Origin: a virus
Length of the DNA stretch: 64,000 nt
Virus record (IMG/VR): IMGVR_UViG_3300025131_000007
Coordinates: 62,001 to 126,000 of that record
Direction: 5' to 3' (one strand)
Below the pieces are notes generated by a model, which was not told the DNA's origin, did not search any database, and saw nothing but the letters and a program-made list of their open reading frames with translations. Shown in pieces: positions 36,062-52,236 of the stretch. The stretch's first letter is position 1, and every line of letters begins with the position of its first letter. A program made the position numbers and the translations under genes.

Positions 36062-36076
36062 AAAAATATTATTTTC

Positions 36077-36247: not shown

Positions 36248-36250
36248 TTT

Positions 36251-36466
36251 ATGAAAGTGGGTGATTTGGTGAAAGTGAATGTGACCCGCGAGCACGTTGC
36301 TGGGGCACTTACCGCCGTTAAATATGTAATGGCGCTCGAACGCCAATATGGGGGCTTAATCGGCATCGTTGTGGAGATCAAGCATGGATATGGATTGATT
36401 AAGTTTCCTACGGGCGTTAAGATGGTAGAACAGAAGTTTTTGGAAGTTATTAGTGCAAGTCGGTGA
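36251..36466 (+). CDS. KVGDLV-family protein, first of the main array
   Basis: Starts MKVGDLVKVNV, has GGLIGIVVEIKHGYG and ends KFLEVISASR; 71 residues. Its last 14 bp also encode the start of the next gene. Preceded by the structured RNA candidate rather than a promoter. Confidence 0.75.
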   Translation: MKVGDLVKVNVTREHVAGALTAVKYVMALERQYGGLIGIVVEIKHGYGLIKFPTGVKMVEQKFLEVISASR

Positions 36467-36722
36467 TTTGGTGATGCTTTCTGCTCATGGTCAAACATTG
36501 GTGATGGCAAGCCATCGCAAAGGTAAGGTGGGTATTATTGTTGACAAAAAACCGCTTTCGCCTTTGGCTTTGGTGGATCCGTTGGAAAATGAATACAAAA
36601 TTCAGTGGTTAGATAGGGAATTACCTTTCGATGGGTTTATTTATCATAGGAGGGATCTAAAGTTCGCTAAGATCACTAAAAATAATGCTGATAAAAGTGG
36701 GGGATTTGGTTCAAGATTGTGA
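36453..36722 (+). CDS. KVGDLV-family protein
   Basis: Starts MQVGDLVMLSAHG (GTG codon), has GKVGIIVDKKP, then an extended insert and FAKITKNN; 89 residues. The end reads through into a longer tail because the next gene is offset. Confidence 0.65.
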   Translation: MQVGDLVMLSAHGQTLVMASHRKGKVGIIVDKKPLSPLALVDPLENEYKIQWLDRELPFDGFIYHRRDLKFAKITKNNADKSGGFGSRL

Positions 36723-36909
36723 CGGGTATTATGGTATCGTAGTGGCAGTAGATCACGCGTATGATTTATATGCACAGTTAGCCCATCCAGAAATATTTGA
36801 AAATGATGGTTTTCCCTTAGAGTATCAATTTGTGACTGTTTTTTGTTTTCACGAATCTTCAGAAATGGTTTTTTTTGATAGTGAATTACAAATATTAAGT
36901 CGGGCATAA
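36685..36909 (+). CDS. KVGDLV-family protein
   Basis: Starts MLIKVGDLVQDCDGYYGIVV; a loop of acidic and aromatic residues follows, ending LQILSRA; 74 residues. Overlaps the previous gene by 38 bp. Confidence 0.65.
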   Translation: MLIKVGDLVQDCDGYYGIVVAVDHAYDLYAQLAHPEIFENDGFPLEYQFVTVFCFHESSEMVFFDSELQILSRA

Positions 36910-36925
36910 AAAAATATTTATTTTC

Positions 36926-36953
36926 TTGACAAAACCCCGCAACGGGTTATATT
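36926..36953 (+). promoter_or_regulatory. Array promoter (TTGACA/TATATT with CAACGGG)
   Basis: TTGACA (36926-36931), 16-bp spacer with CCCCGCAACGGG, TATATT (36948-36953). Confidence 0.8.
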
Positions 36954-36985
36954 TATTACATCAAACACAAACAACGGAGTTCAAA

Positions 36986-37225
36986 ATGAACCAACACTTT
37001 AAAATACTCAACGACAACCAACTCTTGACTTTGCTCAAATGTGCCAGGTATTTGCTCGATAAGGAGTACGATCCCGAAGATTACGCAATGGCTTGCTTTC
37101 TGGGCGGCACCCCCAGCGAATGTATTGACCAGACATTGGAACTGTATGATGTTATCAAAGCTGAACTGGAAACCCGTGGATACCAAGTGCATCAGCATCT
37201 CGCTGTGATCCCTCTGGACTGTTAA
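36986..37225 (+). CDS. Unknown helical protein
   Basis: A 79-residue protein with two helices (NDNQLLTLLKCARYLLDKEY, CIDQTLELYDVIKAELETRG). The ATG after GGAG is the start; the longer frame begins inside the promoter. Not a GDLV protein. Not recognised. Confidence 0.65.
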   Translation: MNQHFKILNDNQLLTLLKCARYLLDKEYDPEDYAMACFLGGTPSECIDQTLELYDVIKAELETRGYQVHQHLAVIPLDC

Positions 37226-37238
37226 ATAAACTATTTTC

Positions 37239-37267
37239 TTGACAAAGAGACAAAGACGCGTTAAATT
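37239..37267 (+). promoter_or_regulatory. Array promoter
   Basis: TTGACA (37239-37244), 17-bp spacer, TAAATT (37262-37267). The AACGGG half-site is degenerate here (GACGCG). Confidence 0.65.
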
Positions 37268-37293
37268 ATTAGATGAAACCCAGGAGTTTTTAT

Positions 37294-37473
37294 ATGAAGT
37301 GCGGCGATCTGATCGAGTGGTTTGACTACACCATTAACCAGAGATTTGTGGGTCTTTATTTGCGACGACGTAAAAAAGATACTGTTACATGGTGTGATAT
37401 TGTTGTGTTGTGCAACGGTAAAGAGGTTGAGTGGGTTTCCTGGCAATGTAGAGTAATAGATGAAAGTGGGTGA
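37294..37473 (+). CDS. KVGDLV-family protein (KCGDLI)
   Basis: Starts MKCGDLIEWFDYT, has FVGLYLRRRK and ends WQCRVIDESG; 59 residues. Start chosen at the ATG after AGGAG. The last 14 bp encode the next start. Confidence 0.7.
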   Translation: MKCGDLIEWFDYTINQRFVGLYLRRRKKDTVTWCDIVVLCNGKEVEWVSWQCRVIDESG

Positions 37474-37645
37474 TCTGGTATGGGTGAACGGTCACCCTCG
37501 GGATGGTCTTCGGAGATTCTTGGCTATTGTTGTAAGAGCACCAACACAGATTTACCCCGGCGCATATTTAGTGCATGGAATCGTGACGGGAAACAGATAT
37601 TGTTTTCATGGTAACGAATTAGAGGTGATAAGTGAAAGTCGGTAG
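37460..37645 (+). CDS. KVGDLV-family protein
   Basis: Starts MKVGDLVWVNGHPRDG, has FLAIVVRAPT and ends ELEVISESR; 61 residues; 14-bp overlap with both neighbours. Confidence 0.75.
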   Translation: MKVGDLVWVNGHPRDGLRRFLAIVVRAPTQIYPGAYLVHGIVTGNRYCFHGNELEVISESR

Positions 37646-37805
37646 CTTAGTGAGAGTCAAAAAAGGTGTTCCACACCAAGGAAACTATAAGTTAGGGATC
37701 GTGATGAGCGTATACCAAGATCATTGCTGGGTGCGCTGGAGAAGTTGGCCAGAAAATGATAAATGGATGTGCAATAGACATTTGGAAATCCTTAGTGAAG
37801 GTTAG
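37632..37805 (+). CDS. KVGDLV-family protein (KVGSLV)
   Basis: GTG start; MKVGSLVRVKKG, then KLGIVMSVYQDHCWVRW, then LEILSEG; 57 residues. Overlaps the next gene by 11 bp. Confidence 0.7.
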   Translation: MKVGSLVRVKKGVPHQGNYKLGIVMSVYQDHCWVRWRSWPENDKWMCNRHLEILSEG

Positions 37806-37956
37806 TGATGTAGTAATCTGGAACCTGGGCTATTCAGATGATGTATATTTGGTCTTATTGGTTGGTGATCATTATGCGTTATTATGGAGTCTTCACCAAA
37901 AATTTGTATTGAATATTACAAACGAGGAGTACCACGAATATGATATTCTTTCTTAA
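37795..37956 (+). CDS. KVGDLV-family protein (KVSDVV)
   Basis: GTG start inside the previous gene; MKVSDVVIWNLGYSDD, YLVLLVGDHYALLW, ending EEYHEYDILS; 53 residues. Divergent last member before a promoter. Confidence 0.6.
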   Translation: MKVSDVVIWNLGYSDDVYLVLLVGDHYALLWSLHQKFVLNITNEEYHEYDILS

Positions 37957-37974
37957 CTTTTTTCCTTTTTTCCC

Positions 37975-38003
37975 TTGACAACTCTATAACAACGGGATAC
38001 ATT
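37975..38003 (+). promoter_or_regulatory. Array promoter (TTGACA/TACATT with AACGGGA)
   Basis: TTGACA (37975-37980), 17-bp spacer ending AACAACGGGA, TACATT (37998-38003). Followed by ATATATACC and AGGAGTA, a leader shared with the promoters at 40172, 41459 and 47379. Confidence 0.85.
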
Positions 38004-38034
38004 ATATATACCAACCAAACAGGAGTACAAAATA

Positions 38035-38370
38035 ATGAATATATGGGTAGTATCTTCATATTATGAGAGCGAATTATACGCTTCCACACACTTAACAAAA
38101 AAAGGCGCGTTCCTTTGCGCTGTTACCGAGTTATACGAGTGTATGAGCATAGATAGATATGATACAATGGCTGAGTTTTGGGAAGAATACGGTTTAGGAG
38201 AAGATGACGAAAAGCCCGAATGGTGTCCTTATGATCTTGAAGAATTGCGGGCATTGAGCAGCGATCAACTATCTGATCAATTTGGCGAAATGAGTGAAAT
38301 GTATTGGGAAACGCACAGTTGGGGCGACCGAATAGAGTTAGAAGTCCTCCAAACAACGGTAACAGCATGA
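38035..38370 (+). CDS. Unknown acidic protein
   Basis: A 111-residue protein: NIWVVSSYYESELYASTHLTK, then acidic and helical (EFWEEYGLGEDDEKPEW). Own promoter and AGGAG. It is not a GDLV protein. Coupled to the next gene by ATGA. Confidence 0.65.
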   Translation: MNIWVVSSYYESELYASTHLTKKGAFLCAVTELYECMSIDRYDTMAEFWEEYGLGEDDEKPEWCPYDLEELRALSSDQLSDQFGEMSEMYWETHSWGDRIELEVLQTTVTA

Positions 38371-38570
38371 ACACCGATGACTTGACGTTAAAGTTAGGCA
38401 CCCTGTTGCATGATGGGAAGTATATATTTATGATCGTTGATAAATATATTGATGATATATTTCCCTACTCACACGATTGCCTCTATACTATTATGTGGCT
38501 ACAAACAGGCGAACGAATATGTGGATGGGACGGTGATGGCATCGTAAACAACTTTGAGGTGATCGCATGA
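38367..38570 (+). CDS. GDLV-related protein (LGTLL)
   Basis: 67 residues: LKLGTLLHDGKYIFMIVDKYIDD, CLYTIMWLQTGERICGW, ending NFEVIA. The three strands fit the family. Starts in the previous stop and ends in the next start. Confidence 0.6.
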   Translation: MNTDDLTLKLGTLLHDGKYIFMIVDKYIDDIFPYSHDCLYTIMWLQTGERICGWDGDGIVNNFEVIA

Positions 38571-38674
38571 AAGTTAAAGAAGATACATTATTCATTTTCG
38601 TATTGGTATTCATGGGGATCCCATTTATCGGGTTGCTGACAGTGGCGATTGAGATACTTAGGGGTGTGATATGA
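38567..38674 (+). CDS. Tiny membrane peptide
   Basis: 35 residues with one hydrophobic segment (LFIFVLVFMGIPFIGLLTVA). Overlaps the genes on both sides by four bases, so it is translated in series with them. Confidence 0.55.
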   Translation: MKVKEDTLFIFVLVFMGIPFIGLLTVAIEILRGVI

Positions 38675-38850
38675 AAGTAGGTGACTTGGTTAGGGCAACG
38701 CTGGCGACTGCGACCGTTCTGGGCATCATTATTGAGCCTTATGATACTCCCAAAGGAGTGTGGCGGGTTGCGTGGGTAGACGGTGGAACGTGGTGCAGCG
38801 GTTCACTATGCCACGAAAATAACATGGAGGTGGTAAATGAAAGTAGGTGA
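38671..38850 (+). CDS. KVGDLV-family protein
   Basis: MKVGDLVRATLATATVLGII then IEPYDTPKGVWRVAWVDGG and CHENNMEVVNESR; 59 residues. Close to the proteins at 39832 and 41668, which share the YD/YN-x-P-K-G-x-W-R-V middle or the CHENxMEV end. 14-bp overlap with the next gene. Confidence 0.75.
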   Translation: MKVGDLVRATLATATVLGIIIEPYDTPKGVWRVAWVDGGTWCSGSLCHENNMEVVNESR

Positions 38851-39049
38851 TTTGGTGAGAGTTAAAAACATTCATCTTCATTGGAGAGACGGATCGAAGA
38901 CGTTGCCTAAGAAGGTTCCCGGTTTTTTGATGCAGGTTTTGGCGATAAATGGAAGTCAGCGGTTTGTGATGATCTTAGAAGGCAAACACTTAGGTTTGAA
39001 ACATTGGATCAATGGCAAAGGCTTAGAGGTGATCAGTGAAGGTAGGTGA
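38837..39049 (+). CDS. KVGDLV-family protein
   Basis: MKVGDLVRVKNIHLHWRDGS, GFLMQVLAINGSQRFVMILE, ending GLEVISEGR; 70 residues; 14-bp overlaps on both sides. Confidence 0.75.
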   Translation: MKVGDLVRVKNIHLHWRDGSKTLPKKVPGFLMQVLAINGSQRFVMILEGKHLGLKHWINGKGLEVISEGR

Positions 39050-39221
39050 TGTGGTAAGGTTCATCCAGCCATCCGAAGAGTGGTTAGCAAAATTGTACGG
39101 GATCGTTTTGGGATGCGATGAGCATGGACGCACTGAGATTTTGTGGAGCGATGGCGACACGGATTATATGGATGGTGATGGTTTCTATGAAATGCTGGAG
39201 GTGATCAGTGAAAGTCGGTGA
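39036..39221 (+). CDS. KVGDLV-family protein (KVGDVV)
   Basis: GTG start; MKVGDVVRFIQPSEEW, YGIVLGCDEHGRTEILW, ending MLEVISESR; 61 residues; 14-bp overlaps on both sides. Confidence 0.75.
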   Translation: MKVGDVVRFIQPSEEWLAKLYGIVLGCDEHGRTEILWSDGDTDYMDGDGFYEMLEVISESR

Positions 39222-39390
39222 CTTGGTTAAAATCACACACCCAAACGGGCATTTCCGAAAAATGGGTGTCATCGTGGGAGAAGGAAAAAGACCCTTTGAA
39301 GGCTGTTTTCGTGTGTATTGGTACATGATGAAAGGCGCAGATAACCGCGAAGGACTCCATAGGCCATTTGATTTGGAGGTGGTAGAATGA
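39208..39390 (+). CDS. KVGDLV-family protein
   Basis: GTG start; MKVGDLVKITHPNGHFRKMG, VIVGEGKRPFEGCFRVYW, ending DLEVVE; 60 residues. Stop overlaps the next start by four bases. Confidence 0.75.
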   Translation: MKVGDLVKITHPNGHFRKMGVIVGEGKRPFEGCFRVYWYMMKGADNREGLHRPFDLEVVE

Positions 39391-39578
39391 AAGTCGGTGA
39401 CTTGGTGAGATACTACGGGCGCGAAGAACTTGGGATCGTCGTTAAAGTTTCTGACTTTACCAAGGGACATATGGGACACGTTGTATATGTGTGGTTTGGT
39501 CCCGATCAAGTTATTGCTCAGTTTTCAAAACACTGGTTGGAGGTGGTAAATGAAGGTCGGCGATCTTGTAACATATAA
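39387..39578 (+). CDS. KVGDLV-family protein with extended C-terminus
   Basis: MKVGDLVRYYGREELGIVVK, then VVYVWFGPDQVIAQF and WLEVVNEGRRSCNI; 63 residues. The extra RRSCNI arises because the next gene has GGC instead of GGT at its glycine codon, which removes the TGA used elsewhere in the array. Confidence 0.75.
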   Translation: MKVGDLVRYYGREELGIVVKVSDFTKGHMGHVVYVWFGPDQVIAQFSKHWLEVVNEGRRSCNI

Positions 39579-39762
39579 AATCAGGAGTGATTTGCTTTCC
39601 CATGAACACAAAATGATGGGGATCGTCGTTAAAGTTGCCCAGGTGTCCCAATGCCTCACCGAGAAGCCGATGGTGTTGATCAATTGGGGATGGAAGAACG
39701 CGCCCCAACGATGGAACGCCATCGAATACGAAAACAGACTGAAAGTGGTTTCCGATGTTTGA
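39550..39762 (+). CDS. KVGDLV-family protein
   Basis: MKVGDLVTYKIRSDLLSHEH, MMGIVVKVAQVSQ, VLINWGWKNA, ending RLKVVSDV; 70 residues. Overlaps the previous gene by 29 bp. Confidence 0.75.
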   Translation: MKVGDLVTYKIRSDLLSHEHKMMGIVVKVAQVSQCLTEKPMVLINWGWKNAPQRWNAIEYENRLKVVSDV

Positions 39763-39769
39763 CATTCTC

Positions 39770-39797
39770 TTGACAGCAGACTCCTTTGGAATATGGT
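39770..39797 (+). promoter_or_regulatory. Possible array promoter (weak -10)
   Basis: TTGACA (39770-39775), 16-bp spacer, TATGGT (39792-39797). It lacks AACGGG. It lies in one of the few gaps in the array and a GTG-start gene with AGGAGTAAATA follows. Confidence 0.4.
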
Positions 39798-39831
39798 ATA
39801 ACGTATCTAAGTGAAAGAACAGGAGTAAATA

Positions 39832-40011
39832 GTGAAAGTAGGTGACTTAGTGAGAGCAAAAGACCATCGGGTATTACCCGATGGAACCGTTGGTATCATT
39901 GTCGAGGTTTATGATATTCTCTTTTGGCTGGTTCATTGGACCGTTGGAGACAGTTGTTATCGGAGATTGTGCCATGAAAATGGCATGGAGGTCATCAATG
40001 AAAGTAGGTAG
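39832..40011 (+). CDS. KVGDLV-family protein
   Basis: GTG start; MKVGDLVRAKDHRVLPDGTV, GIIVEVYDILFWLVHW, CHENGMEVINESR; 59 residues. Near paralogue of the 38671 protein. 14-bp overlap with the next gene. Confidence 0.75.
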   Translation: MKVGDLVRAKDHRVLPDGTVGIIVEVYDILFWLVHWTVGDSCYRRLCHENGMEVINESR

Positions 40012-40153
40012 CTTAGTTTATGATGATCATTATGGCAATGGCATTGTGATTAATTCGTGGGATGACTTCAAGGGACAGATTGCTCGCGTGTATTTTCGAA
40101 CAGGTGAGGTAATCGGGGAGTATGGCACCAAGGTGCTAACGGTTGTAAAATAA
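39998..40153 (+). CDS. KVGDLV-family protein (KVGSLV), recent duplicate
   Basis: MKVGSLVYDDHYGNGIVINS, then VYFRTGEVIGEYGTKVLTVVK; 51 residues. Its first 53 bp after the initial base are identical to those of the gene at 40231. Confidence 0.75.
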   Translation: MKVGSLVYDDHYGNGIVINSWDDFKGQIARVYFRTGEVIGEYGTKVLTVVK

Positions 40154-40284
40154 GTTTTTTCAACTTTTTTCTTGACAACTCCCTGAGAACGGGATACATT
40201 ATATATACCAATAAAAATTAGGAGTAAATAGTGAAAGTAGGTAGCTTAGTTTATGATGATCATTATGGCAATGGCATTGTGATT
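39999..40284 (+). repeat. 53-bp exact direct duplication in two array genes
   Basis: The segments 39999-40051 and 40232-40284 are identical, covering the start of two paralogues; sequence diverges sharply afterwards. Confidence 0.9.
40172..40200 (+). promoter_or_regulatory. Array promoter (TTGACA/TACATT with AACGGGA)
   Basis: TTGACA (40172-40177), 17-bp spacer with CCCTGAGAACGGGA, TACATT (40195-40200). Nearly the same 60 bp, down to AATTAGGAGTAAA, recur at 41459. Confidence 0.85.
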
Positions 40285-40392
40285 GAAGTTTTGAGCGTTG
40301 GCGTGGTAATCCACTTTACCGACCACAAAAAGGTTTGTTTTTTGGATCAACAATTGATAGATGCCGTTGAGGTGATCAGTGAAGCCCGGTAA
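40231..40392 (+). CDS. KVGDLV-family protein (KVGSLV), recent duplicate
   Basis: GTG start; MKVGSLVYDDHYGNGIVIEV, VVIHFTDHKKVCFL, ending VEVISEAR; 53 residues. 14-bp overlap with the next gene. Confidence 0.75.
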   Translation: MKVGSLVYDDHYGNGIVIEVLSVGVVIHFTDHKKVCFLDQQLIDAVEVISEAR

Positions 40393-40582
40393 CTTAGTCA
40401 GAATCATCCACACCGGCTATTATGGAGCCAAAGAAGGCGTTGGGTTGGTGATGAAGGTCAGCAACCACTTTGAACACGTTCACGGTGGTTTTCCGCGCAG
40501 CGTTACCTATGTAACCGTGAAATGGAATAGTGATACAACTACCATCGAAGAAGATGATCAGTTGGTGGTGGTGAACAAATGA
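40379..40582 (+). CDS. KVGDLV-family protein (KPGNLV)
   Basis: GTG start; MKPGNLVRIIHTGYYG, GVGLVMKVSNHFEH, YVTVKWNSDTT, ending LVVVNK; 67 residues. ATGA overlap with the next gene. Confidence 0.75.
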   Translation: MKPGNLVRIIHTGYYGAKEGVGLVMKVSNHFEHVHGGFPRSVTYVTVKWNSDTTTIEEDDQLVVVNK

Positions 40583-40764
40583 AAGTAGGTGATTTGGTAA
40601 AATACAATAGTCCTCATCGCAGAAGCGATATACTCGCAAGCAGGGTCGGGGTCATCATTGAAGCCCAAAAACGAAAGCACTTTCCCTTGCGTTCGGTGAC
40701 CGTCTTATGGGCAAACGGGAAGAAGGGGAGTTATCCCGATAAATACTTAGAGGTGATCGCATGA
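40579..40764 (+). CDS. KVGDLV-family protein
   Basis: MKVGDLVKYNSPHRRSD, RVGVIIEAQKRKH, VTVLWANGKKGSY, ending YLEVIA; 61 residues. ATGA overlaps at both ends. Confidence 0.75.
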   Translation: MKVGDLVKYNSPHRRSDILASRVGVIIEAQKRKHFPLRSVTVLWANGKKGSYPDKYLEVIA

Positions 40765-40970
40765 AAGTAGGTGACTTGGTTGCAACAACCCATAACAGCA
40801 GAAGATATGTCGGGGTTGTGGTTGAAATTATTCAGAATGAGGTGTTTGGTTGGTCTTGCAGTCGTATGCGGGAGCTTGCAGGTCACTCTGTGTTGGTTGC
40901 TTATCCAACCGGAGAGCGCAGACGTTATAAGAATGGCGGTAGATTAGAGGTGATAAGTGAAAGCAGGTAA
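40761..40970 (+). CDS. KVGDLV-family protein
   Basis: MKVGDLVATTHNSRRYVGVV, VEIIQNEVFGWSCSRMRE, VLVAYPTGERRRY, ending LEVISESR; 69 residues. 14-bp overlap with the next gene. Confidence 0.75.
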   Translation: MKVGDLVATTHNSRRYVGVVVEIIQNEVFGWSCSRMRELAGHSVLVAYPTGERRRYKNGGRLEVISESR

Positions 40971-41124
40971 TTTAGTGAGAATAAAACGAGGTGATTACAA
41001 AGGTAAGGTGGCTGTTGTGATCAAAGTTGCCAAACGGCTCCCCAGAGTTGTTCATTGCCTCCACTCTTGGAATCCCTCTCAAGATGAGTTTGGCTACTAC
41101 AGGGAAGATTTGGAGGTATTATGA
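40957..41124 (+). CDS. KVGDLV-family protein (KAGNLV)
   Basis: GTG start; MKAGNLVRIKRGDYKGKVAV, VIKVAKRLPRVVHCLHSW, ending DLEVL; 55 residues. ATGA overlap with the next gene. Confidence 0.75.
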   Translation: MKAGNLVRIKRGDYKGKVAVVIKVAKRLPRVVHCLHSWNPSQDEFGYYREDLEVL

Positions 41125-41285
41125 AAGTAGGAGATTTAGTTAGACATAAAATAGGATCTCTTGATAGGAAAGGCATTGTTACAGAATGGAACGATCACGG
41201 TGATGTATGGGTTGTGTTTTTCGATGGCAGCAAGCCTACATGGTGTCGATGGCGAAACATTGAGGTGTTAAGTGAAAGTAGGTGA
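41121..41285 (+). CDS. KVGDLV-family protein
   Basis: MKVGDLVRHKIGSLDRKGIV, TEWNDHGDVWVVFFDGS, ending IEVLSESR; 54 residues. 14-bp overlap with the next gene. Confidence 0.75.
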   Translation: MKVGDLVRHKIGSLDRKGIVTEWNDHGDVWVVFFDGSKPTWCRWRNIEVLSESR

Positions 41286-41445
41286 CTTGGTGAAATGGAA
41301 CTTCAAGACCCGATACGCAGACTGGAAGGAGATAGGGATTATCATTCGCTGTATTCCCGGCACCGATAAACGAAAGGTTGTTCATTGGTCAAGCGGAGAG
41401 AGGGGTAGCTATAAACCCCACCAGTTGAAGGTGGTAAGAAAATAA
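41272..41445 (+). CDS. KVGDLV-family protein
   Basis: GTG start; MKVGDLVKWNFKTRYADWKE, IGIIIRCIPGTDKRKVVHW, ending QLKVVRK; 57 residues. Ends before the next promoter. Confidence 0.75.
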   Translation: MKVGDLVKWNFKTRYADWKEIGIIIRCIPGTDKRKVVHWSSGERGSYKPHQLKVVRK

Positions 41446-41458
41446 ATACTTTTTTTTC

Positions 41459-41487
41459 TTGACAACTCCCTGAGAACGGGATACATT
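41459..41487 (+). promoter_or_regulatory. Array promoter, copy of the 40172 cassette
   Basis: TTGACA (41459-41464), 17-bp spacer with CCCTGAGAACGGGA, TACATT (41482-41487). Confidence 0.85.
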
Positions 41488-41518
41488 ATATATACCAATA
41501 AAAATTAGGAGTAAACCA

Positions 41519-41671
41519 GTGCATAGATTTGGATCCATTGTAGAATACGCTAACGGCGAATATGCTATGATCATAGACTATTACAAACCAACCAATACAT
41601 ATATAATTCGTTTCCTTGTTGATGAAGAAGAGATAGCCGCATCTGAAGATGAATTCACGGTGGTATCGTGA
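41519..41671 (+). CDS. KVGDLV-family protein (FGSIV)
   Basis: GTG start; MHRFGSIVEYANGEYAMIID, NTYIIRFLVDEEE, ending FTVVS; 50 residues. ATGA-type (GTGA) overlap with the next gene. Confidence 0.65.
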   Translation: MHRFGSIVEYANGEYAMIIDYYKPTNTYIIRFLVDEEEIAASEDEFTVVS

Positions 41672-41832
41672 AAGTGGGTAACTTGGTCAAGACCACACCC
41701 AAAGGATACGTCGCTCTCGTTGTCGAGGGCTACAACATTCCAAAAGGCTTGTGGCGAGTCCGTTGGCTTAACGGAATGGGCAAAGGGAAAATAGGGCTTT
41801 GCTCTGCCAAGTCGGTCGAAGTGATAGCATGA
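41668..41832 (+). CDS. KVGDLV-family protein (KVGNLV)
   Basis: GTG start; MKVGNLVKTTPKGYVALVVE, GYNIPKGLWRVRWLNG, ending VEVIA; 54 residues. Confidence 0.75.
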   Translation: MKVGNLVKTTPKGYVALVVEGYNIPKGLWRVRWLNGMGKGKIGLCSAKSVEVIA

Positions 41833-42029
41833 ACGTAGGTGATCTTATAAAAAGCACTACCCGCTATAAGGATCAGTTAATGATGGTGGTTGAGACTCGA
41901 ACACTATGTGATCTGTTTGGAGAATTCCAACAAATTCGGGCACTTAGTTTAAAAACTGGCATTCAAACCCGTTGGTGCCGATCAGAAACATGGAAGGTGA
42001 TAAGTGGAAAAAACTCCCATTGTAGATAA
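41829..42029 (+). CDS. KVGDLV-family protein (NVGDLI)
   Basis: MNVGDLIKSTTRYKDQLMMV, VETRTLCDLFGEFQQIRALS, ending WKVISGKNSHCR; 66 residues. Last member of the main array. The next gene starts within it in another frame. Confidence 0.75.
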   Translation: MNVGDLIKSTTRYKDQLMMVVETRTLCDLFGEFQQIRALSLKTGIQTRWCRSETWKVISGKNSHCR

Positions 42030-42117
42030 AAAAGATAAAGAAAAAACAAAAGAAGAGAAAAGATCCACACCCAAAAAAGAAGACAAGAAGCCCTTTAACG
42101 ATCCTATTGACTGGTGA
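42004..42117 (+). CDS. Small lysine-rich peptide
   Basis: 37 residues, mostly Lys, Glu and Asp (VDKKDKEKTKEEKRSTPKK), ending FNDPIDW. GTG start placed like the array starts. Probably disordered. Not recognised. Confidence 0.45.
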   Translation: MEKTPIVDKKDKEKTKEEKRSTPKKEDKKPFNDPIDW

Positions 42118-42121
42118 TAAA

Positions 42122-42304
42122 ATGAAAAATAATGATAGCCAACACCACGTTGCACAAAAGAGAAAAAGAATAAATAAGAGAAATTGGTTAGCCGTTCACG
42201 CTCATAACCGTAAGGGCGGGCCAATGCAATCCAAGAAAAGGAAGGATGAACGCCGACAATCACGACAAAAATATACTATTCGCAATTATTTCCTTGACGA
42301 ATAG
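42122..42304 (+). CDS. Small basic protein
   Basis: 60 residues, strongly basic (KRKRINKRNWLAVHAHNRKG, QSKKRKDERRQSRQ). May bind nucleic acid. Its 3' end contains the next promoter's -35 box. Confidence 0.55.
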   Translation: MKNNDSQHHVAQKRKRINKRNWLAVHAHNRKGGPMQSKKRKDERRQSRQKYTIRNYFLDE

Positions 42305-42321
42305 CCAAAACAGGTTAAATT
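42294..42321 (+). promoter_or_regulatory. Array-type promoter for the zinc-knuckle gene
   Basis: TTGACG (42294-42299), 16-bp spacer, TAAATT (42316-42321), then ATATATAC as in neighbours. Confidence 0.65.
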
Positions 42322-42348
42322 ATATATACAAAACAGGAGTAAAAGAAC

Positions 42349-43203: not shown

Positions 43204-43233
43204 AAATAAATCAATCTTTTTTCAACTATTTTC

Positions 43234-43261
43234 TTGACAAGACCCGCCAACGGGTTATATT
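43234..43261 (+). promoter_or_regulatory. Promoter for the MoxR-type gene (CAACGGG)
   Basis: TTGACA (43234-43239), 16-bp spacer with CCCGCCAACGGG, TATATT (43256-43261). Confidence 0.85.
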
Positions 43262-43308
43262 TATAATACAAGATAAGAATAAACACTTTCCCCTCAATGG
43301 AGTAACAA

Positions 43309-44397
43309 ATGACAGTAGATTTCGCAACTTTCACAAGAGTAGCCCCACATATCCTTGACGCAAAACTTCCCGTACTTGTGCGTGGTCGTCATGGTGTAGG
43401 AAAATCCCAAATAGTATATCAAATTGCAGCAGCGCGTAATCTCCCCGTTATCGAACGTCGCGCCTCTCAAATGACCGAGGGTGATCTGTTGGGTCTTCCT
43501 GATACCGCTGATACTTCTATCAATGGTCGCAAAGCTACCACCTGGAACGCTCCAGACTGGCTTGTAACTGCGTGTGAACAACCGGTGCTCTTATTCCTCG
43601 ATGAAGTTGATAGAGCTACCTTAGAAGTTCGTCAAGGGCTGTTTGAGCTTACAGATAGTCGTAAGATCAACGGTTGGCATCTTCATGCTGATACTTTGAT
43701 CGTTGCTGCTGTCAATGGTGGCGAAAACGGCGCTCAATATCAAGTCGGTGAAATGGATCCTGCTGAATTGGATCGTTGGACAGTGTTTGACGTTGAACCT
43801 TCTGTGGAAGACTGGCTTAAATGGGCGAATAATGATAAGATCGATAGTGTTATTTGGGATTTTATCAACACAAATCGCAACCATCTTGAGCACGTTGGTG
43901 AATTCGAGCCTAATAAGGTTTATCCTTCTCGCCGTTCGTGGGATCGTTTCAATACCACCGCTGCACCTTTGGGTGTGTTTGGTGAGGACGGCGATATGGA
44001 TATGTTATTTAATCTTGCTACCGCTTTCCTTGGTTTTGAAGCTGCTGTTGCTTGTCGTGACTTTGTTGAAAAATATGAATGGCAAGTCACTATTGAAGAC
44101 ATTCTTGAAAAAGGCGATCTTGCCAAAACTGAAAAATGGGGAATCAATGATCACGCTGCCATGATAGAGAAATTCGAGGCTTCAAGTGTTTTTAGTGAAA
44201 CCTTGCCAGTTGCTAAAATTCGCAACCTTGCCAACTACTTTGTGAAGTTGCCTTCTGAAGTGGCTATGAAACTTTGGACCGTCATCGGTGACACCGATAA
44301 TATTGATAATGTTATTGCTCTCCACAAAGCACAAACCACTGACGGCACCCTTGTCAGCGATCACTTGGTTGAAATTCTTGGTGGCAATACCGACTGA
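43309..44397 (+). CDS. MoxR-type AAA+ ATPase
   Basis: The 362 residues have Walker A GRHGVGKS (26-33), Walker B VLLFLDEVDR (93-102), a sensor-1-like VAAVNGG and an arginine-finger-region MDPAELDRW. The lid and C-terminal helices follow. MoxR ATPases act with a VWA-domain partner as chaperones that insert metals or remodel complexes. The neighbouring gene at 44733 encodes that partner. The pair sits amid accessory genes with a shared promoter type, so the phage carries its own copy of this remodelling system; its target is unknown. Confidence 0.88.
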   Translation: MTVDFATFTRVAPHILDAKLPVLVRGRHGVGKSQIVYQIAAARNLPVIERRASQMTEGDLLGLPDTADTSINGRKATTWNAPDWLVTACEQPVLLFLDEVDRATLEVRQGLFELTDSRKINGWHLHADTLIVAAVNGGENGAQYQVGEMDPAELDRWTVFDVEPSVEDWLKWANNDKIDSVIWDFINTNRNHLEHVGEFEPNKVYPSRRSWDRFNTTAAPLGVFGEDGDMDMLFNLATAFLGFEAAVACRDFVEKYEWQVTIEDILEKGDLAKTEKWGINDHAAMIEKFEASSVFSETLPVAKIRNLANYFVKLPSEVAMKLWTVIGDTDNIDNVIALHKAQTTDGTLVSDHLVEILGGNTD

Positions 44398-44657
44398 TGG
44401 AAGGGTGGCGCAAAAACAGGCGCAAGATCCCCCCACCAACCCGCCAAGGGATCGGTGTGGGGGATCTTCTTTTACGTGAGTGTGACAAACGTCTTTGTAT
44501 CGTGTTAAATGTAGAAAAGAGCGCAAAAGCTGTGTATGGTATGTCTGGGGAATATAGGGCAAATTACCGTTTATATACAGCAAAGGGCAACTTGAGGGTT
44601 AAAGATACAGAGATTATTGCGGGTTATGAAGTTTTAAGTTATGCTTTACGAGAATAA
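44397..44657 (+). CDS. GDLV-family protein (VGDLL)
   Basis: 86 residues with a 20-residue basic leader (WRKNRRKIPPPTRQG), then IGVGDLLLRECDKRLCIVLN, a Tyr-rich loop and GYEVLSYALRE. Starts in the stop of the ATPase gene. Its early coding region also forms the hairpin at 44424. Confidence 0.6.
   Translation: MEGWRKNRRKIPPPTRQGIGVGDLLLRECDKRLCIVLNVEKSAKAVYGMSGEYRANYRLYTAKGNLRVKDTEIIAGYEVLSYALRE
44424..44468 (+). repeat. GC-rich hairpin just after the MoxR gene
   Basis: AAGATCCCCC (44424-44433) pairs with GGGGGATCTT (44459-44468), extended by ACC/GGT with a bulge; the T-rich tail TTCTTTT follows. It could be an attenuator or transcript-end structure inside the next gene. Confidence 0.6.
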
Positions 44658-44679
44658 TACAGAAAACGCATATTTCTTC

Positions 44680-44708
44680 TTGACAAACCCCGTTCAACGG
44701 GATACATT
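44680..44708 (+). promoter_or_regulatory. Promoter with CCCGTTCAACGGG dyad
   Basis: TTGACA (44680-44685), 17-bp spacer holding CCCCGTTCAACGGGA, TACATT (44703-44708). Identical in this core to the promoter at 46982. Confidence 0.88.
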
Positions 44709-44732
44709 ATATATACAATGGGAGTACATTAA

Positions 44733-46049
44733 ATGACAGAAGAGAACAAATCACCGAAAAACGTGGAATCCACAACGGATAATAAAGTTGTGCATCCACC
44801 TTTTAATCTTAATATGCACACTGCGCGGCTACTCATGCGAGAACCGTTCTTTGCTGCTCTTAGTCGTCGGATCGATAAGACCGCGAGCACCGCAATACCG
44901 ACCGCTGGGGTTCGGGTCAATCCTGATCGCGCACAGTTTGAAATGCTTTACAATCCTGAGTTTTTCGCTCAGTTGAAAGATGAACATAAGTTAGGCGTGT
45001 TAATGCACGAATTCTATCATATCATCTTTGAGCATGTGACCGGGCGTAAACCCTCCGATGGCCTTAAACGCATTGATAACATAGCGATGGATCTGGCGAT
45101 TAACGGTTTGCCCGAAATGCGTGGTAAATTGCCATGTGAAGCCGAACCGGGGCCTATTATTGGGAAAAAGCCTATGAAGGCCTGTATGCCCGGTGAAGGC
45201 CCATTCAAGGATCTACCGGCTGGTAAAACCTATGAATGGTATCTTGCTGCTCTTAAAAAGAAACAAGAAGAACAACAAAATGAGAAAGGTGAAGGTGAGC
45301 CCGGCGAAGGTCAGCCCGGTGAAGGCAGTGGGCAACCCGGTGATGGCGATCCGTTCGGTGGAATGGATTCATTCGATGAACATGATCAGTTCGGTGAGGC
45401 CGATGGAACAACCAAAGATATAGCCAAAGAAAGACTGAAAGAGGCACTTAAAAAGGCTTCAGAAGAAGCAGAACGCGCCCGTAATTGGGGTTCTGTATCG
45501 TCTTCCATGCGACAGGAGATACTTGATCGGATTAGCACCAAAGTTGACTGGCGCAAAGTGCTTAGATACTTCGTGAAAACCTCTCAGCGCGCCGATCGTT
45601 TCTCTACTCCACGCCGCTTGAACAAGCGTTTTCCTAAGATCCATCCTGGCAAGCGAGTGCGCCGCCATGCTCGAATCGCTATCTCTATCGATCAGTCTGG
45701 ATCGGTGGATGATGGGATGCTCGCAGCGTTCTTTTCAGAGTTAAATAAACTTGCTGAGATAGCCGAGTTTACTGTGGTGCCATTTGATACCACAGTAGCA
45801 GAGGATAAAGTATATGTTTGGAAAAAAGGGCAAACCAAAAAGACCGAACGCGTTTTGTGTGGTGGAACGTGCTTTGACGCTCCAACGCGATATGTGAACG
45901 AGCGCAAATTTGACGGTCATATTATACTTACTGATATGATGGCACCTAAGCCAGTTCCCTCCGCATGTCAGCGCATGTGGATGACCACCAAAGCGAACGT
46001 TGGCCGGCCATACTTTCAAACCAACGAACGCGTTATAGCAGTAGACTAA
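44733..46049 (+). CDS. VWA-like metallopeptidase-type partner of MoxR (DUF2201-like)
   Basis: The 438 residues contain MHEFYHIIFEH at 91-101, a zinc-metallopeptidase-like HExxH, then a Gly/Glu/Pro-rich spacer (GEGEPGEGQPGEG region). The C-terminal part is a VWA-like domain with the MIDAS-type D320-x-S322-x-S324 (IDQSGSV). Proteins with this domain order are partners of MoxR ATPases. It follows its ATPase with one small GDLV gene between. The HEFYH residues suggest metal binding, but peptidase activity has not been shown for the family generally. Own promoter and GGGAG. Confidence 0.85.
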   Translation: MTEENKSPKNVESTTDNKVVHPPFNLNMHTARLLMREPFFAALSRRIDKTASTAIPTAGVRVNPDRAQFEMLYNPEFFAQLKDEHKLGVLMHEFYHIIFEHVTGRKPSDGLKRIDNIAMDLAINGLPEMRGKLPCEAEPGPIIGKKPMKACMPGEGPFKDLPAGKTYEWYLAALKKKQEEQQNEKGEGEPGEGQPGEGSGQPGDGDPFGGMDSFDEHDQFGEADGTTKDIAKERLKEALKKASEEAERARNWGSVSSSMRQEILDRISTKVDWRKVLRYFVKTSQRADRFSTPRRLNKRFPKIHPGKRVRRHARIAISIDQSGSVDDGMLAAFFSELNKLAEIAEFTVVPFDTTVAEDKVYVWKKGQTKKTERVLCGGTCFDAPTRYVNERKFDGHIILTDMMAPKPVPSACQRMWMTTKANVGRPYFQTNERVIAVD

Positions 46050-46060
46050 GGAATCAACAC

Positions 46061-46372
46061 ATGAAAAGATTAATGAACAGTCACGTAATAAAAGCATGGG
46101 TAGATGGAGAAGCAGCAAAAAACCACAAAGGCACACTTACAGCTTTTGGTTGTGGTGGTTTGTATAGCTATCATCTTAAAATAGGTCAACGAACTAAGAC
46201 GGGGGTATGTGTTTTAAGCGAGTTTAACGCCCGTACGGGTAGTTTTCGCTCACAAACTACGTCTACCCACGTAAACCTTGCTAAGCGCGTTATACGCGGC
46301 TCTGGGGGGCTTGTGATGCACCCTCGAGTATGGGAAACTTCACCACTCCATGAAGATGAGCTTCCGTTCTGA
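46061..46372 (+). CDS. Unknown protein
   Basis: A 103-residue protein: HVIKAWVDGEAAKNHKGTLT, a Gly/Tyr stretch (FGCGGLYSYHLKIG), and a basic core. Could be a small beta domain. ATG at 46061 after AAGGA; the longer open frame lies inside the VWA gene. Not recognised. Confidence 0.6.
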   Translation: MKRLMNSHVIKAWVDGEAAKNHKGTLTAFGCGGLYSYHLKIGQRTKTGVCVLSEFNARTGSFRSQTTSTHVNLAKRVIRGSGGLVMHPRVWETSPLHEDELPF

Positions 46373-46641
46373 TGTCGGATGATCAATATAAAGATTATCC
46401 TAATGTCGTTGATTTCCACGCGTGGAAAAAACAGAAAGATGTCGACGACGAAGAAGATTTAAAGGAAAGTTTAGGCTATTTTCGTCAATTGTTAAATGAC
46501 ATCGTTGGCGATATGGGATTAGGAGATCCTGCTTATCGCACTTTTCATATTCCGTTAGGTGATGAGTTACTGTCGGGATCTTCTACATTTTTTGACTTTG
46601 AAGAATGGGATCCAATGGGCGACGACGATGAAACAAGGTAA
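46372..46641 (+). CDS. Unknown acidic protein
   Basis: 89 residues, Asp-rich (VDDEEDLKES, DPMGDDDETR). Overlaps the previous stop. Not recognised. Confidence 0.55.
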   Translation: MSDDQYKDYPNVVDFHAWKKQKDVDDEEDLKESLGYFRQLLNDIVGDMGLGDPAYRTFHIPLGDELLSGSSTFFDFEEWDPMGDDDETR

Positions 46642-46846
46642 ATTAAGGGTTGGTGATCTGGTTTGTATCACCAAGCACACCGATGATGATCGCCTTCCTA
46701 CTTCACGTATCGGCATTTTGTTGCGGAGGCTCCGCACTACCGTTCATTATACCGATACGCGCCCGGCCGCCACCCCTGTGTGGTTTATCCAGTTTACTAA
46801 CGGTGAGATATTACAGTTTCACGAAATGTATATAAAAAAGGTATAG
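46628..46846 (+). CDS. GDLV-family protein (RVGDLV)
   Basis: 72 residues: KLRVGDLVCITKHTDDD, RIGILLRRLRTTVHY, VWFIQFTNGEI, ending EMYIKKV. The ATG in the last codons of the previous gene is the start. Confidence 0.65.
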   Translation: MKQGKLRVGDLVCITKHTDDDRLPTSRIGILLRRLRTTVHYTDTRPAATPVWFIQFTNGEILQFHEMYIKKV

Positions 46847-46850
46847 AATA

Positions 46851-46985
46851 ATGAATCTTGAAACAAATCTAATAGTTACGCTTGCCGCCATCGTAAAAAT
46901 GCTATCCTACTGTTATCCGGTGCTGATCGTGGCTATTCTTATGATGATAGCAGAAAAACACATCAAACCCGATCTTTCTTCTTGA
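46851..46985 (+). CDS. Tiny membrane protein
   Basis: 44 residues with one hydrophobic segment (SYCYPVLIVAILMMIA). Its stop codon lies in the next promoter's -35 box. Confidence 0.5.
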   Translation: MNLETNLIVTLAAIVKMLSYCYPVLIVAILMMIAEKHIKPDLSS

Positions 46986-47010
46986 CAAACCCCGTTCAAC
47001 GGGATACATT
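46982..47010 (+). promoter_or_regulatory. Promoter with CCCGTTCAACGGG dyad
   Basis: TTGACA (46982-46987), 17-bp spacer, TACATT (47005-47010); the core duplicates that at 44680. Confidence 0.88.
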
Positions 47011-47039
47011 ATATATACACAATGAATAGGAGTGTAAAA

Positions 47040-47363
47040 ATGGATACAAACAAAGCAACATTGCTCCACTGTAGGGCCACAAGACAACGCTTGATAAACG
47101 AAACGGTTGAAGCGCTGCAAAATAGACGAACTGATATCATGCTTGTTATGGGTTTCTATCGCATAATGGAATCCGCAGATATTCCTTTGATTATGGCAGC
47201 ACACAAAGCTGTGGGTCAGCGCGTGGTGGATGCTGTTATGAAAGCAACCGACAATAAAGATCCACAATGCCCACTTTATGAGTCGTTACAAGAGAGTAGC
47301 GCTTTTAACCAAAAGATAGAACACGCTGTATCTCTTTATAAGGCTGGATACGCCCCACAATAA
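47040..47363 (+). CDS. Unknown helical protein
   Basis: 107 residues, all helical (CRATRQRLINETVEALQNR, AHKAVGQRVVDAVMKATDNK). ATG after AGGAG. Not recognised. Confidence 0.6.
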   Translation: MDTNKATLLHCRATRQRLINETVEALQNRRTDIMLVMGFYRIMESADIPLIMAAHKAVGQRVVDAVMKATDNKDPQCPLYESLQESSAFNQKIEHAVSLYKAGYAPQ

Positions 47364-47378
47364 AAGTCAACTATTTTC

Positions 47379-47407
47379 TTGACAAATCCCCTTCAACGGG
47401 ATACATT
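47379..47407 (+). promoter_or_regulatory. Promoter (CTTCAACGGG)
   Basis: TTGACA (47379-47384), 17-bp spacer with CCCCTTCAACGGGA, TACATT (47402-47407). Confidence 0.85.
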
Positions 47408-47435
47408 ATATATACCAACCAAACAGGAGTAAAAA

Positions 47436-47657
47436 TTGAATAACTTAGATACCGTAATACTTTGGGAAGATGCTTGTAGAACGTTCGAAGATGAGGTGTT
47501 ACCTTGTGTTCAAGAACAGTTCGAGCAAGACGGCGAACCTGATTATGTAGCCCGTTCAGAAGAATGGAACAATTGGACCGATATGTTGTGTAAAAATGGC
47601 GACATATCTCAATGGCAGGATGACAACTGGTCGCATCCCTCTTGCTGTGATCAATAG
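47436..47657 (+). CDS. Unknown acidic protein
   Basis: 73 residues, helical with several Trp and Cys (EWNNWTDMLCKNGD, SHPSCCDQ). TTG start after AGGAGTAAAAA. Not recognised. Confidence 0.6.
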   Translation: MNNLDTVILWEDACRTFEDEVLPCVQEQFEQDGEPDYVARSEEWNNWTDMLCKNGDISQWQDDNWSHPSCCDQ

Positions 47658-47666
47658 GGGGATACA

Positions 47667-48014
47667 ATGGCTTATTTACACAAAGATGACATAGTTCTTC
47701 TGAAGTTTCGCGGCGGTCTTTCACATTCTCGCGTGGTAGACGTTCGTTTTCGGCGCTTTTTGAGAAGCTGGAGAGACAAAAAAACAGATAAGATCAAAAA
47801 ACGCTGGAAGTCGGTGCCTTATGCCATATGTGAGACTTTTGCGGGTGTTCTACCTTCTGGCACCGAGTTTATGATTCCCGGCTACAAGTTGAAGAATGAA
47901 ACTAAGAATGGCGATCGGTTACTTGTTTTACATGATAAATTTGCTTGTGAATTTAATACCGACTGGGCCAATACTCTTATCGCAGAATCAAAAGAAAAGA
48001 GAGGTATCATATGA
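47667..48014 (+). CDS. GDLV-related basic protein (KDDIV)
   Basis: 115 residues: HKDDIVLLKFRGGLSHSRVV resembles the family start; a basic insert (RDKKTDKIKKRWKS) follows. GGGGGA precedes the ATG. Overlaps the next gene by four bases. Confidence 0.55.
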   Translation: MAYLHKDDIVLLKFRGGLSHSRVVDVRFRRFLRSWRDKKTDKIKKRWKSVPYAICETFAGVLPSGTEFMIPGYKLKNETKNGDRLLVLHDKFACEFNTDWANTLIAESKEKRGII

Positions 48015-48847
48015 GAGTTACATTTTTCCATCGTTTATTGGCTATACTTGACACCGAAGGCGTGTCTAAGCGTGATCATGCAACAGCCACCGATTTGCTT
48101 AGTCAGTACACGAAAACCAAGCGTCTTTCAAGCGGTCAGAGTCGCCTTGTACGCATCCTTGAAGAGAAGAACGCACCCGAAGCTATCGCAGAGCGTAAAA
48201 GCCGCACATCACCCATTATCGAGCGTTTAACAACCCTGTATGGTCGCATCGCTGATCAAAAGTCATGGGATTATGGGTTTTGTGAAAGTCTCTTGGAACA
48301 GGCACGAAATGACCGATCTCTTAGTCCTCGCCAATTGGAGATCCTTGAAAAAATCGAAGGTCGTTATAATGATGAAGCTATGGAAGTTTTGCGATCATGG
48401 AATCGCAACTTTACCCCTGACATGCGAGAAAGATACGAGGTGTGTTTACAGTATTATAAACGTAGTTTATATTTTAAGCGTCAATGTCAAGAGTATCAAG
48501 CCGCTTATGAGAATGGCATTAAGTTGATCCCTTCAATGAATGACTATAACAAGGTTGTAAAGAACAAGTATGCTGAAAAGGTCTTGACCGCGCATTATGC
48601 CGATCCGCTTTATCCGGTGGGATCGATGGTGACATTGAGAGGCAAGCGGTTCCCTAACAGGTATGGAGCCCAACCAAAGCCCAACTATCTGGTTATCAAG
48701 AATAACCTACCGATCCGTAACGCTTGCAAAGGTGCGAAAATATACCAATTACTTCCGGTTGGATCGGCTCAGTTAGTACATTTTGAAGAACGACAACTTA
48801 AAAAACATCGCGCTCCTAAGAAGCGTTCACCGGAGATTCGCACATGA
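48011..48847 (+). CDS. Unknown protein, paralogue of the 31564 gene
   Basis: 278 residues with two copies of a helix pair (RLSSGQSRLVRIL and SLSPRQLEILEKI), then a C-terminal strand domain (YPVGSMVTLRGKRFPNR) that resembles the GDLV start (VGSMV). The related 31564 protein has one copy of the repeat. Function unknown; the fusion hints that these helical repeats and the GDLV barrel work together. Confidence 0.65.
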   Translation: MRVTFFHRLLAILDTEGVSKRDHATATDLLSQYTKTKRLSSGQSRLVRILEEKNAPEAIAERKSRTSPIIERLTTLYGRIADQKSWDYGFCESLLEQARNDRSLSPRQLEILEKIEGRYNDEAMEVLRSWNRNFTPDMRERYEVCLQYYKRSLYFKRQCQEYQAAYENGIKLIPSMNDYNKVVKNKYAEKVLTAHYADPLYPVGSMVTLRGKRFPNRYGAQPKPNYLVIKNNLPIRNACKGAKIYQLLPVGSAQLVHFEERQLKKHRAPKKRSPEIRT

Positions 48848-49041
48848 GTGATGCAACTGTTGACACCGCTTTATCAAAAGCTCGGTATCTTGCTCCTAAC
48901 TTAGCCTATTCGTTAGCTTTGCAAGATAGTTTGAAACAACTTCAAATCTTAAAAGACACCGGAAGAGAAGCAGAATATAACGTTATGATAGAGGTTATTA
49001 TTACTGCGCTTTTGACCGTTCCGGCGGTGGGTGAAGCATGA
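48844..49041 (+). CDS. Small helical protein
   Basis: 65 residues, helical (LAYSLALQDSLKQLQILKDT). Coupled at both ends by four-base overlaps. Not recognised. Confidence 0.55.
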   Translation: MSDATVDTALSKARYLAPNLAYSLALQDSLKQLQILKDTGREAEYNVMIEVIITALLTVPAVGEA

Positions 49042-49118
49042 TCGCAGTGTATACTCTAATGATAATATCCGCATTATCTTGCATGGTGGCACTTTACGCA
49101 TGGAACAAACAACGATGA
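49038..49118 (+). CDS. Tiny membrane peptide
   Basis: 26 residues, one hydrophobic segment (VYTLMIISALSCMVALYAW). Overlaps the next start, so it continues the chain of coupled genes. Confidence 0.45.
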   Translation: MIAVYTLMIISALSCMVALYAWNKQR

Positions 49119-49321
49119 AAGTAGGAACACTAATCAAAACAATCCGCGCTCGAATAAACCTCCCAAAAGGTTCAATCGGGTTGGTTACATCATCGCACGT
49201 GCGAGATTACGGATCAGGCGTGGTCTTTTGGCATGAGGTTAAATTCATCGGTGGTCGTCGGAACGATACGACACTACGCATATTTGAGCGAGATTTTGAG
49301 GTACTCCATGAAAGCAGGTGA
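49115..49321 (+). CDS. KVGDLV-family protein (KVGTLI)
   Basis: MKVGTLIKTIRARINLPKGS, IGLVTSSHVRDYGSG, FERDFEVLHESR; 68 residues; 14-bp overlap with the next gene. First of the second cluster; members here share KG/PKGSxGLVT and IGG sequences. Confidence 0.75.
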   Translation: MKVGTLIKTIRARINLPKGSIGLVTSSHVRDYGSGVVFWHEVKFIGGRRNDTTLRIFERDFEVLHESR

Positions 49322-50427: not shown

Positions 50428-50482
50428 TTCTAAAAGTTAAACAATGGAACTACCTGCCCGTTCCGAACACCGTTAGGAAGTT

Positions 50483-52235: not shown

Positions 52236-52236
52236 A

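Follow-up and report, generated by a model that had tools for sequence, protein, structure and literature searches.

We analyzed a 64,000-nucleotide (nt) stretch of viral DNA (the window; positions 62001-126000 of the 135,976-base virus record IMGVR_UViG_3300025131_000007) that carries runs of small genes from a single paralogous family, with products that begin M-K-V-G followed by D, S or N. Neighbors within a run overlap, and the element of interest here is the joint at which they do so. We consider it likely that the region is organized as short operons of paralogues with a predicted SH3/KOW fold, linked by a standard dual-coding joint of about 35 nt, in which the end of one gene also encodes the start of the next. 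Gene coordinates below refer to the plus strand.

Anatomy and frequency of the joint

An initial annotation of the window had proposed that, at about 11 junctions, the upstream stop lies inside codons 4-5 of the next gene. This was borne out. Each of the 11 junctions, read from the sequence, has an overlap of exactly 14 nt, with the upstream stop formed by nt 12-14 of the downstream gene and spanning its codons 4 and 5. The joints link 36251..36466 to 36453..36722 (which has a GTG start); 37294..37473 to 37460..37645, and 37460 to 37632..37805; 38671..38850 to 38837..39049, 38837 to 39036..39221, and 39036 to 39208..39390; 39832..40011, a run start, to 39998..40153; 40231..40392 to 40379..40582; 40761..40970 to 40957..41124; 41121..41285 to 41272..41445; and 49115..49321 to 49308..49511, two divergent family genes. 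The annotation listed the stop as TGA or TAG, which covers nine junctions (seven TGA, including 37294/37460; two TAG, 37460/37632 and 39832/39998) and misses two with TAA (40231/40379 and 40761/40957). It also described GAGGTG, in the E-V codons of an upstream LEVI motif, as the Shine-Dalgarno (SD) sequence of the next gene. We found GAGGTG ahead of the start at seven of the 11 junctions, and GAGGTC, GAGGTA, GAAGTT or AGAGTA at the remainder. Similarly, the double reading of the same bases as SESR-stop and MKVGD applies in its exact form to four junctions, with variant tails at seven: NESR (two), HESR, SEGR, SEAR, SASR and DESG. Examples of complete endings are FLEVISASR (36251), LEVISESR (37460, 39036 and 40761), MEVVNESR (38671), LEVISEGR (38837) and FEVLHESR (49115).

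The 14-nt overlap does not extend to the 13 further family junctions examined in the window. Nine of these overlap by 4 nt (ATGA): 39208/39387 (39387..39578), 40379/40579 (40579..40764, ending LEVIA), 40579/40761, 40957/41121 (the former ending LEVL), 41668/41829 (41668..41832 and 41829..42029), 49308/49508 (49508..49702) and 49508/49699 (49699..49914), the genes at 49308, 49508 and 49699 being divergent, and 49893/50054 (49893..50057 and 50054..50236) and 50054/50233 (50233..50427). The others overlap by 11 nt (37632/37795), 22 nt (49699/49893), 29 nt (39387/39550; 39550..39762) and 38 nt (36453/36685; 36685..36909).

The upstream stop lies where it does because GGT (Gly4) followed by GA, AG or AA (of Asp, Ser or Asn) holds TGA, TAG or TAA in a shifted frame. 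An upstream gene read in this frame has to end here, and its last residues are the out-of-frame reading of the next start, [S/N]-E-S-R. When the upstream gene arrives in the remaining frame, it stops at ATGA or GTGA instead. The 29-nt overlap at 39387/39550 arises because Gly4 is GGC, so that the upstream frame continues past the start. The 11-nt overlap at 37632/37795 arises because Ser (AGT) occupies the Gly4 position and moves the upstream stop; the downstream gene here (37795-37956, starting MKVSDVV) is a diverged member that was missed by the profile described next.

Family members were collected from two sets of viral loci. The first comprises 120 loci from a DNA pattern search, in which the pattern fixes GGTGA. 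The second comprises 80 loci (L122-L201) reached via a neighboring AAA protein; these were not selected by junction, and GGTGA was not fixed. Members were called with a profile built without the C-terminal columns, giving 1,730 members and, after clustering at 80% identity, 1,277 non-redundant ones; some contigs feed loci into both sets, and this clustering is the sole guard against double counting. The divergent window genes at 49115-49914 went undetected by the trimmed profile and fall outside the family statistics.

Among 640 coupled neighbors in the non-redundant set, short co-directional overlaps predominate: -14 in 494 and -4 in 78. By comparison, 303 adjacent pairs of non-family open reading frames (ORFs) from the same loci, with start sites set by a simple rule, showed -4 in 86 and -14 in 5, which excludes chance as the source of the 14-nt overlap. 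Published surveys give -4 and -1 as the commonest gene overlaps and long ones as far rarer (PMC3887535, PMC10666635), with overlaps of about -10 to -60 about four-fold rarer (Huber et al. 2023, PMC10666635). As in the translationally coupled pairs described in PMC12548453 and PMC10666635, where termination-reinitiation operates, co-directional overlap is combined here with an SD sequence within the upstream coding sequence. Those pairs, however, mostly overlap by 4, 1 or 8 nt, whereas here a 14-nt overlap with standard sequence rules a multi-gene family. Coupling, SD sequences inside upstream genes and repeat-mediated amplification of phage genes are all known in general; a search of the titles and abstract openings of open-licence papers turned up none that appeared to describe a standard joint used throughout a family of viral genes.

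Predicted ribosome-binding signal and the conserved C-terminus

The annotation had further suggested that the translation signal is part of what keeps the C-terminus conserved, in which case members closing a run should show weaker conservation of E-V. We therefore compared coupled members with terminal ones, defined as having neither an ORF of at least 40 codons that begins no more than 30 nt from the stop nor an MK.GD-like start close by, a class in which downstream genes of <40 codons would escape detection. Rows without the aligned column 53 were excluded from counts of E (58 of 640 coupled, 72 of 230 terminal). Coupled members carry the E of LEVI in 481 of 582 cases, and members at run ends do so in 76 of 158 (Fisher P = 3e-17), so the equal conservation expected of a purely protein-level motif was not seen. 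Codon choice also differed, with GAG:GAA ratios of 453:28 in coupled and 35:41 in terminal members (Fisher P = 5e-23). At their other glutamates, the coupled genes use GAG in 684 of 1,539 cases and the terminal genes in 264 of 602 (about 44%). Bootstrapping over 154 loci placed the class difference at 0.27-0.42 for E and 0.38-0.59 for GAG.

These differences did not depend on how loci or tails were chosen. In the AAA-anchored set alone, E was found in 236/286 coupled and 42/90 terminal members, encoded by GAG in 224/236 and 16/42, respectively. An alternative rule for the tail (the last L-x-V-I-like motif) gave E in 438/563 and 60/165, with GAG in 416/438 and 27/60, and first-round counts, made with the tail included in the profile, gave the same picture. 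The 308 members followed by some other ORF fell in between (E, 136/218; GAG, 112/136). Among homologues of GAG-bearing coupled genes, GAG was retained in 267 of 301 that are coupled and in 10 of 44 that are terminal.

Neighboring positions point to the same signal. The Leu codon before E ends in G (TTG or CTG), completing GGAGG, in 251/316 frame-1 coupled genes versus 44/119 terminal ones. Where K replaces E in coupled genes, the codon is AAG in 31 of 38 cases, preserving AGG. In junctions of the 14-nt type, the SD sequence lies at a single aligned spacing (356 cases); in those of the 4-nt type, it mostly lies at an aligned spacing of +2 (29) or -1 (22), exactly the spacings at which GAG-GTN is still read as E-V. 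Of 640 coupled proteins, 240 finish with SESR or NESR, compared with 1 of 230 terminal ones. Columns 52, 54 and 55 (L52, V54 and I55), on the other hand, are hydrophobic in 94-100% of coupled and terminal members alike.

The GAG/GGAGG constraint is thus a property of coupled genes only, with the predicted initiation signal lying inside the upstream coding sequence. Because the excess of E and GAG is limited to these genes and L, V and I are equally kept in both classes, the SD sequence appears to set mainly E, and the fold the rest; "partly" was the right word in the annotation. The E side chain probably faces outward, judging from the alternating pattern of the strand. An SD sequence inside an upstream coding end was reportedly treated by Eyre-Walker in 1996. 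In the cases of Palleja et al. 2009 (PMC2784483), the stop and codon use at the end of an upstream gene are shaped by the ribosome-binding site that serves its downstream neighbor, as seems to be so here. The family differs from those cases in that the effect reaches the amino acid across a large set of paralogues, and in that run-end and homologous members serve as an internal control.

Gene gain and loss, and the origin of the joint

Close relatives differ by whole genes at the joints. Loci L133 and L179 have flanks that are 99-100% identical, and a single 176-nt gene, lying between 20-nt repeats (ATGAAAGTCGGTGATTTGGT), is present in L133 only. L133 has gene B between A and C, overlapping A by 14 nt and C by 4 nt; in L179, which lacks B, the overlap of 14 nt is directly between A and C, and the joint is intact. 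Overall, we identified 43 distinct insertions or deletions (indels) of 100-1,500 nt. Of the 24 that contain family genes, 15 have both ends in a joint, nine have one and none has neither; of the 19 without a family gene, none has both ends in a joint. Blocks of high identity also end in a joint in 66 of 81 cases, compared with 34% expected under uniformity. These natural pairs, L133/L179 being the best, back the earlier suggestion that modules can be duplicated without breaking coupling, in that gain or loss appears to leave the overlap intact. Since the same joint stands at both ends of a gene, recombination from joint to joint could insert or delete complete genes with a functional joint left in place, and we infer this to be how genes are gained and lost. 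At T4 dmd-tifA (PMC9391042), the copy number of small phage genes likewise shifts when short repeats, typically of 6-10 bp, recombine. Those repeats are incidental ones on either side of the locus; in the present family, the start of the gene itself serves as the repeat, which returns with each gene and leaves a joint that preserves the overlap.

Could the C-terminal E-V-I and tail be kept for the protein alone, with GAGGTG a codon preference that mimics a ribosome-binding site? In a barrel whose prediction is confident, LEVI forms the final strand; its hydrophobic positions are kept whatever lies downstream, and neither overlap type puts E-V out of frame. Conservation at the protein level stands for L, V and I. 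For E and its codon it is contradicted, by the 94% use of GAG at the joint, compared with 46% at run ends and about 44% in the remainder of these genes, by the loss of GAG in terminal homologues and by the matching behavior of the preceding Leu wobble, so that we regard this explanation as very improbable. A passive origin of the overlap has more in its favor: a GGT-GA start would force the stop, and the frame would have been set once and then duplicated. The stop does follow mechanically from the Gly-Asp codons, both phases occur and are interchangeable, and overlaps of -11, -17, -20 and -23 would, judging from the distances, share this stop and differ in a start displaced by whole codons. 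Yet Gly4 is GGT in 495 of 525 genes in which the upstream stop uses it, compared with 70/105 in the 4-nt type and 410/632 without an upstream family gene, and the AAA-anchored set again shows unequal use across these contexts (165/172, 13/20 and 163/246). In addition, Val3 is GTT, which would place Trp at the upstream end, in only 7/413 stop-supplying starts versus 76/412 starts without an upstream family gene. The passive account is a true part of the story that leaves the SD constraint unexplained, and as the whole of it we think it unlikely.

A third possibility is that recurrent recombination or gene conversion has copied one DNA box, with translation playing a minor part. Joint-bounded indels fit this, as do the codons over-represented at starts that have no upstream family gene, Val3 GTC and Gly4 GGT. 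But copying predicts uniformity at all wobble sites, and those inside the joint that carry no signal are near background (Val54, 1.72 bits versus 1.93; Leu5, 2.14; Val6, 1.80), with low entropy at the signal positions (GAG, 0.29; GGT, 0.36). Moreover, in 4-nt-type junctions the signal moves and keeps its frame. The entropies thus count against pure homogenization as the sole cause, and we judge this explanation improbable. Several observations nevertheless weigh against attributing the joint to translation signals in full. In terminal members, glutamate (76/158) still outnumbers every other residue at its position, and LEVVSES persists with other codons in some of their genes (in L169, GAA-GTT and AGC-GAG-TCT), so protein function or recent descent also holds the tail. 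GGT at Gly4 is enriched (65%) even in genes without an upstream family gene, and in such genes Val3 is GTC in 202 of 412, whereas gene bodies have GTC at about 19%; because these excesses occur without any overlap, shared descent or recombination would add to the uniformity of the joint. GGAGG/GAGGTG is a predicted SD element. The indels are end states, each of which may stem from a gain or from a loss, and selection against hybrid proteins could also give indels that end in joints.

Taking the joint as shaped jointly by fold and ribosome-binding site, we propose the following mechanism. The last strand, L-E-V-I, is written (T/C)TG-GAG-GTN-ATN, hence GGAGGT(GAT), placing a predicted SD sequence at a fixed distance from the next start. 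That start (xATG or xGTG) and codons 2-4 are read one frame over as S/N-E-S-R, and Gly4-Asp5 (GGT-GA) provides the upstream stop. The ribosome would then terminate just beyond a complete initiation site and could feed the next gene. Whereas the anatomy and frequency of the joint, the codon and amino-acid constraint and the presence or absence of genes at joints are all seen in the sequences, actual translational coupling, by termination-reinitiation or by local re-binding of ribosomes, we infer. The constraint would be dual: the fold needs hydrophobic L, V and I, and the ribosome-binding site needs GAG, which would favor glutamate where the residue otherwise drifts toward K, R, Q or T. The SESR tail, which is read from the start of the next gene, would be a passenger.

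The joint may even be a universal connector selected as such, packing the last strand of whichever member lies upstream, a ribosome-binding site, a stop, the start and first strand of whichever member lies downstream, and recombination homology into about 35 nt; we hold this tentatively, at slightly less than an even chance. If so, the genes would form a self-assembling and rapidly reshuffled library of barrels, whose genes could stand in any order and still be co-translated, and at the end of a run the next promoter would rewrite the same residues. In any event, the family offers a clear natural case in which a ribosome-binding site, more than protein function, appears to fix a conserved amino acid, with hundreds of paralogues as internal control. 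Profile- or structure-based methods would take the joint glutamate as functional. The arrangement also suggests a way for a virus to hold a swappable set of small genes co-expressed, with a joint that survives gene gain and loss, and hints at a compact natural design for linking genes.

Run ends, predicted fold and gene surroundings

At run ends, the joint is absent. The window proteins in this position finish ELQILSRA (36685), LKVVSDV (39550, K for E), VLTVVK (39998), LKVVRK (41272, K for E), WKVISGKNSHCR (41829) and LEVIEEKAL (50233, with E encoded by GAA). In the non-redundant set, the terminal stop codon lies inside TTGAC in 84 of 230 cases (64 of them in TTGACA), compared with 23 of 948 coupled or other genes. 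Past this stop box, TTGACA follows 11 nt on in 38 cases, with TTGAC 15 nt further in 27. The window carries the first two boxes of the triple at 39759-39775: TTGACA at 39759-39764 contains the TGA stop of gene 39550, and the next, 11 bp away at 39770-39775, likewise lies upstream of the run that starts at 39832. In the window and in L002-L201, a TATAAT-like box often comes after the TTGAC(A) series at run ends. Upstream of promoter-like sites at run starts, TTGAC occurs at -26 in 15/147 and at -15 in 17/147, with 50 upstream matches in total versus 4.6 in shuffles. Given the stops inside TTGAC, the last residues of a run-end protein would often be written by the next promoter, through its predicted -35 box, and the TTGAC element may be a repeated -35-like or activator site that doubles as a gene end. 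The 11-bp TTGACA repeats may form a site for a PHO-box-like regulator, although their orientation differs from that of the PHO box.

Several run-end proteins (in L008, L015, L028, L087 and L096) finish KKCP-stop, written by AAAAAATGTCCTTGA. At some of these ends, GGAC stands ahead of the A run, and a possible hairpin (GGACA-TGTCC) abuts the -35-like element.

The family consists of small proteins (about 50-90 amino acids) modeled as SH3/KOW-fold paralogues. AlphaFold2 predicted a five-strand barrel for the product of 41121..41285 (predicted local distance difference test score, 94; predicted template modeling score, 0.76), with the last strand (strand 5, the IEVLS stretch) at residues 47-51, covering E-V. 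The nearest solved folds are Spt5 KOW domains (Z 9.5, root-mean-square deviation 1.4 and 15% identity over 54 aligned residues; VIA-align). Thus, the family resembles the KOW/SH3-like barrels of Spt5 and NusG in its predicted SH3-like fold but differs from them in sequence. Profile matches to uL24 and NusG chains were weak (E 0.011-0.11), searches of family members against Pfam and PHROGs gave no confident family, and the KOW model was absent from the Pfam matches of 93 members at E<=0.01. Foldseek against viral models returned numerous weak barrel matches, several in one accession series (A0A516M...). The proteins perhaps serve in host take-over or counter-defence.

The family occurs in large uncultured viruses, and all 16 related virus records that were searched whole carry 15-33 family copies each (E 0.01 or better). 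Against 50,697 phage records, neither tblastn of two family members nor megablast of window positions 36000-50500 gave a match, and a distant search with one junction gave short matches at chance level only. Three family members, two of them sharing a 14-nt overlap, occur in a 2.8-megabase chromosome assigned to a metagenome-assembled genome of candidate division WOR-3 (CP070664.1, L205); these copies are either a provirus or a mis-assigned virus.

Neighboring genes in the window include those for a DnaB-type helicase, a ribonucleotide reductase with a B12-type insertion domain, ThyX and the DNA polymerase III alpha subunit, as well as ClpP, Cpn60 and ClpS. Two family genes (39998-40051 and 40231-40284) have their first 18 residues in common (MKVGSLVYDDHYGNGIVI) and then diverge, a sign, at the sequence level, of recent partial duplication or conversion. 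Finally, two large ORFs that are otherwise different (52123-53178 and 54694-55542) both finish QTRVG-stop, possibly reflecting a shared 3' end.

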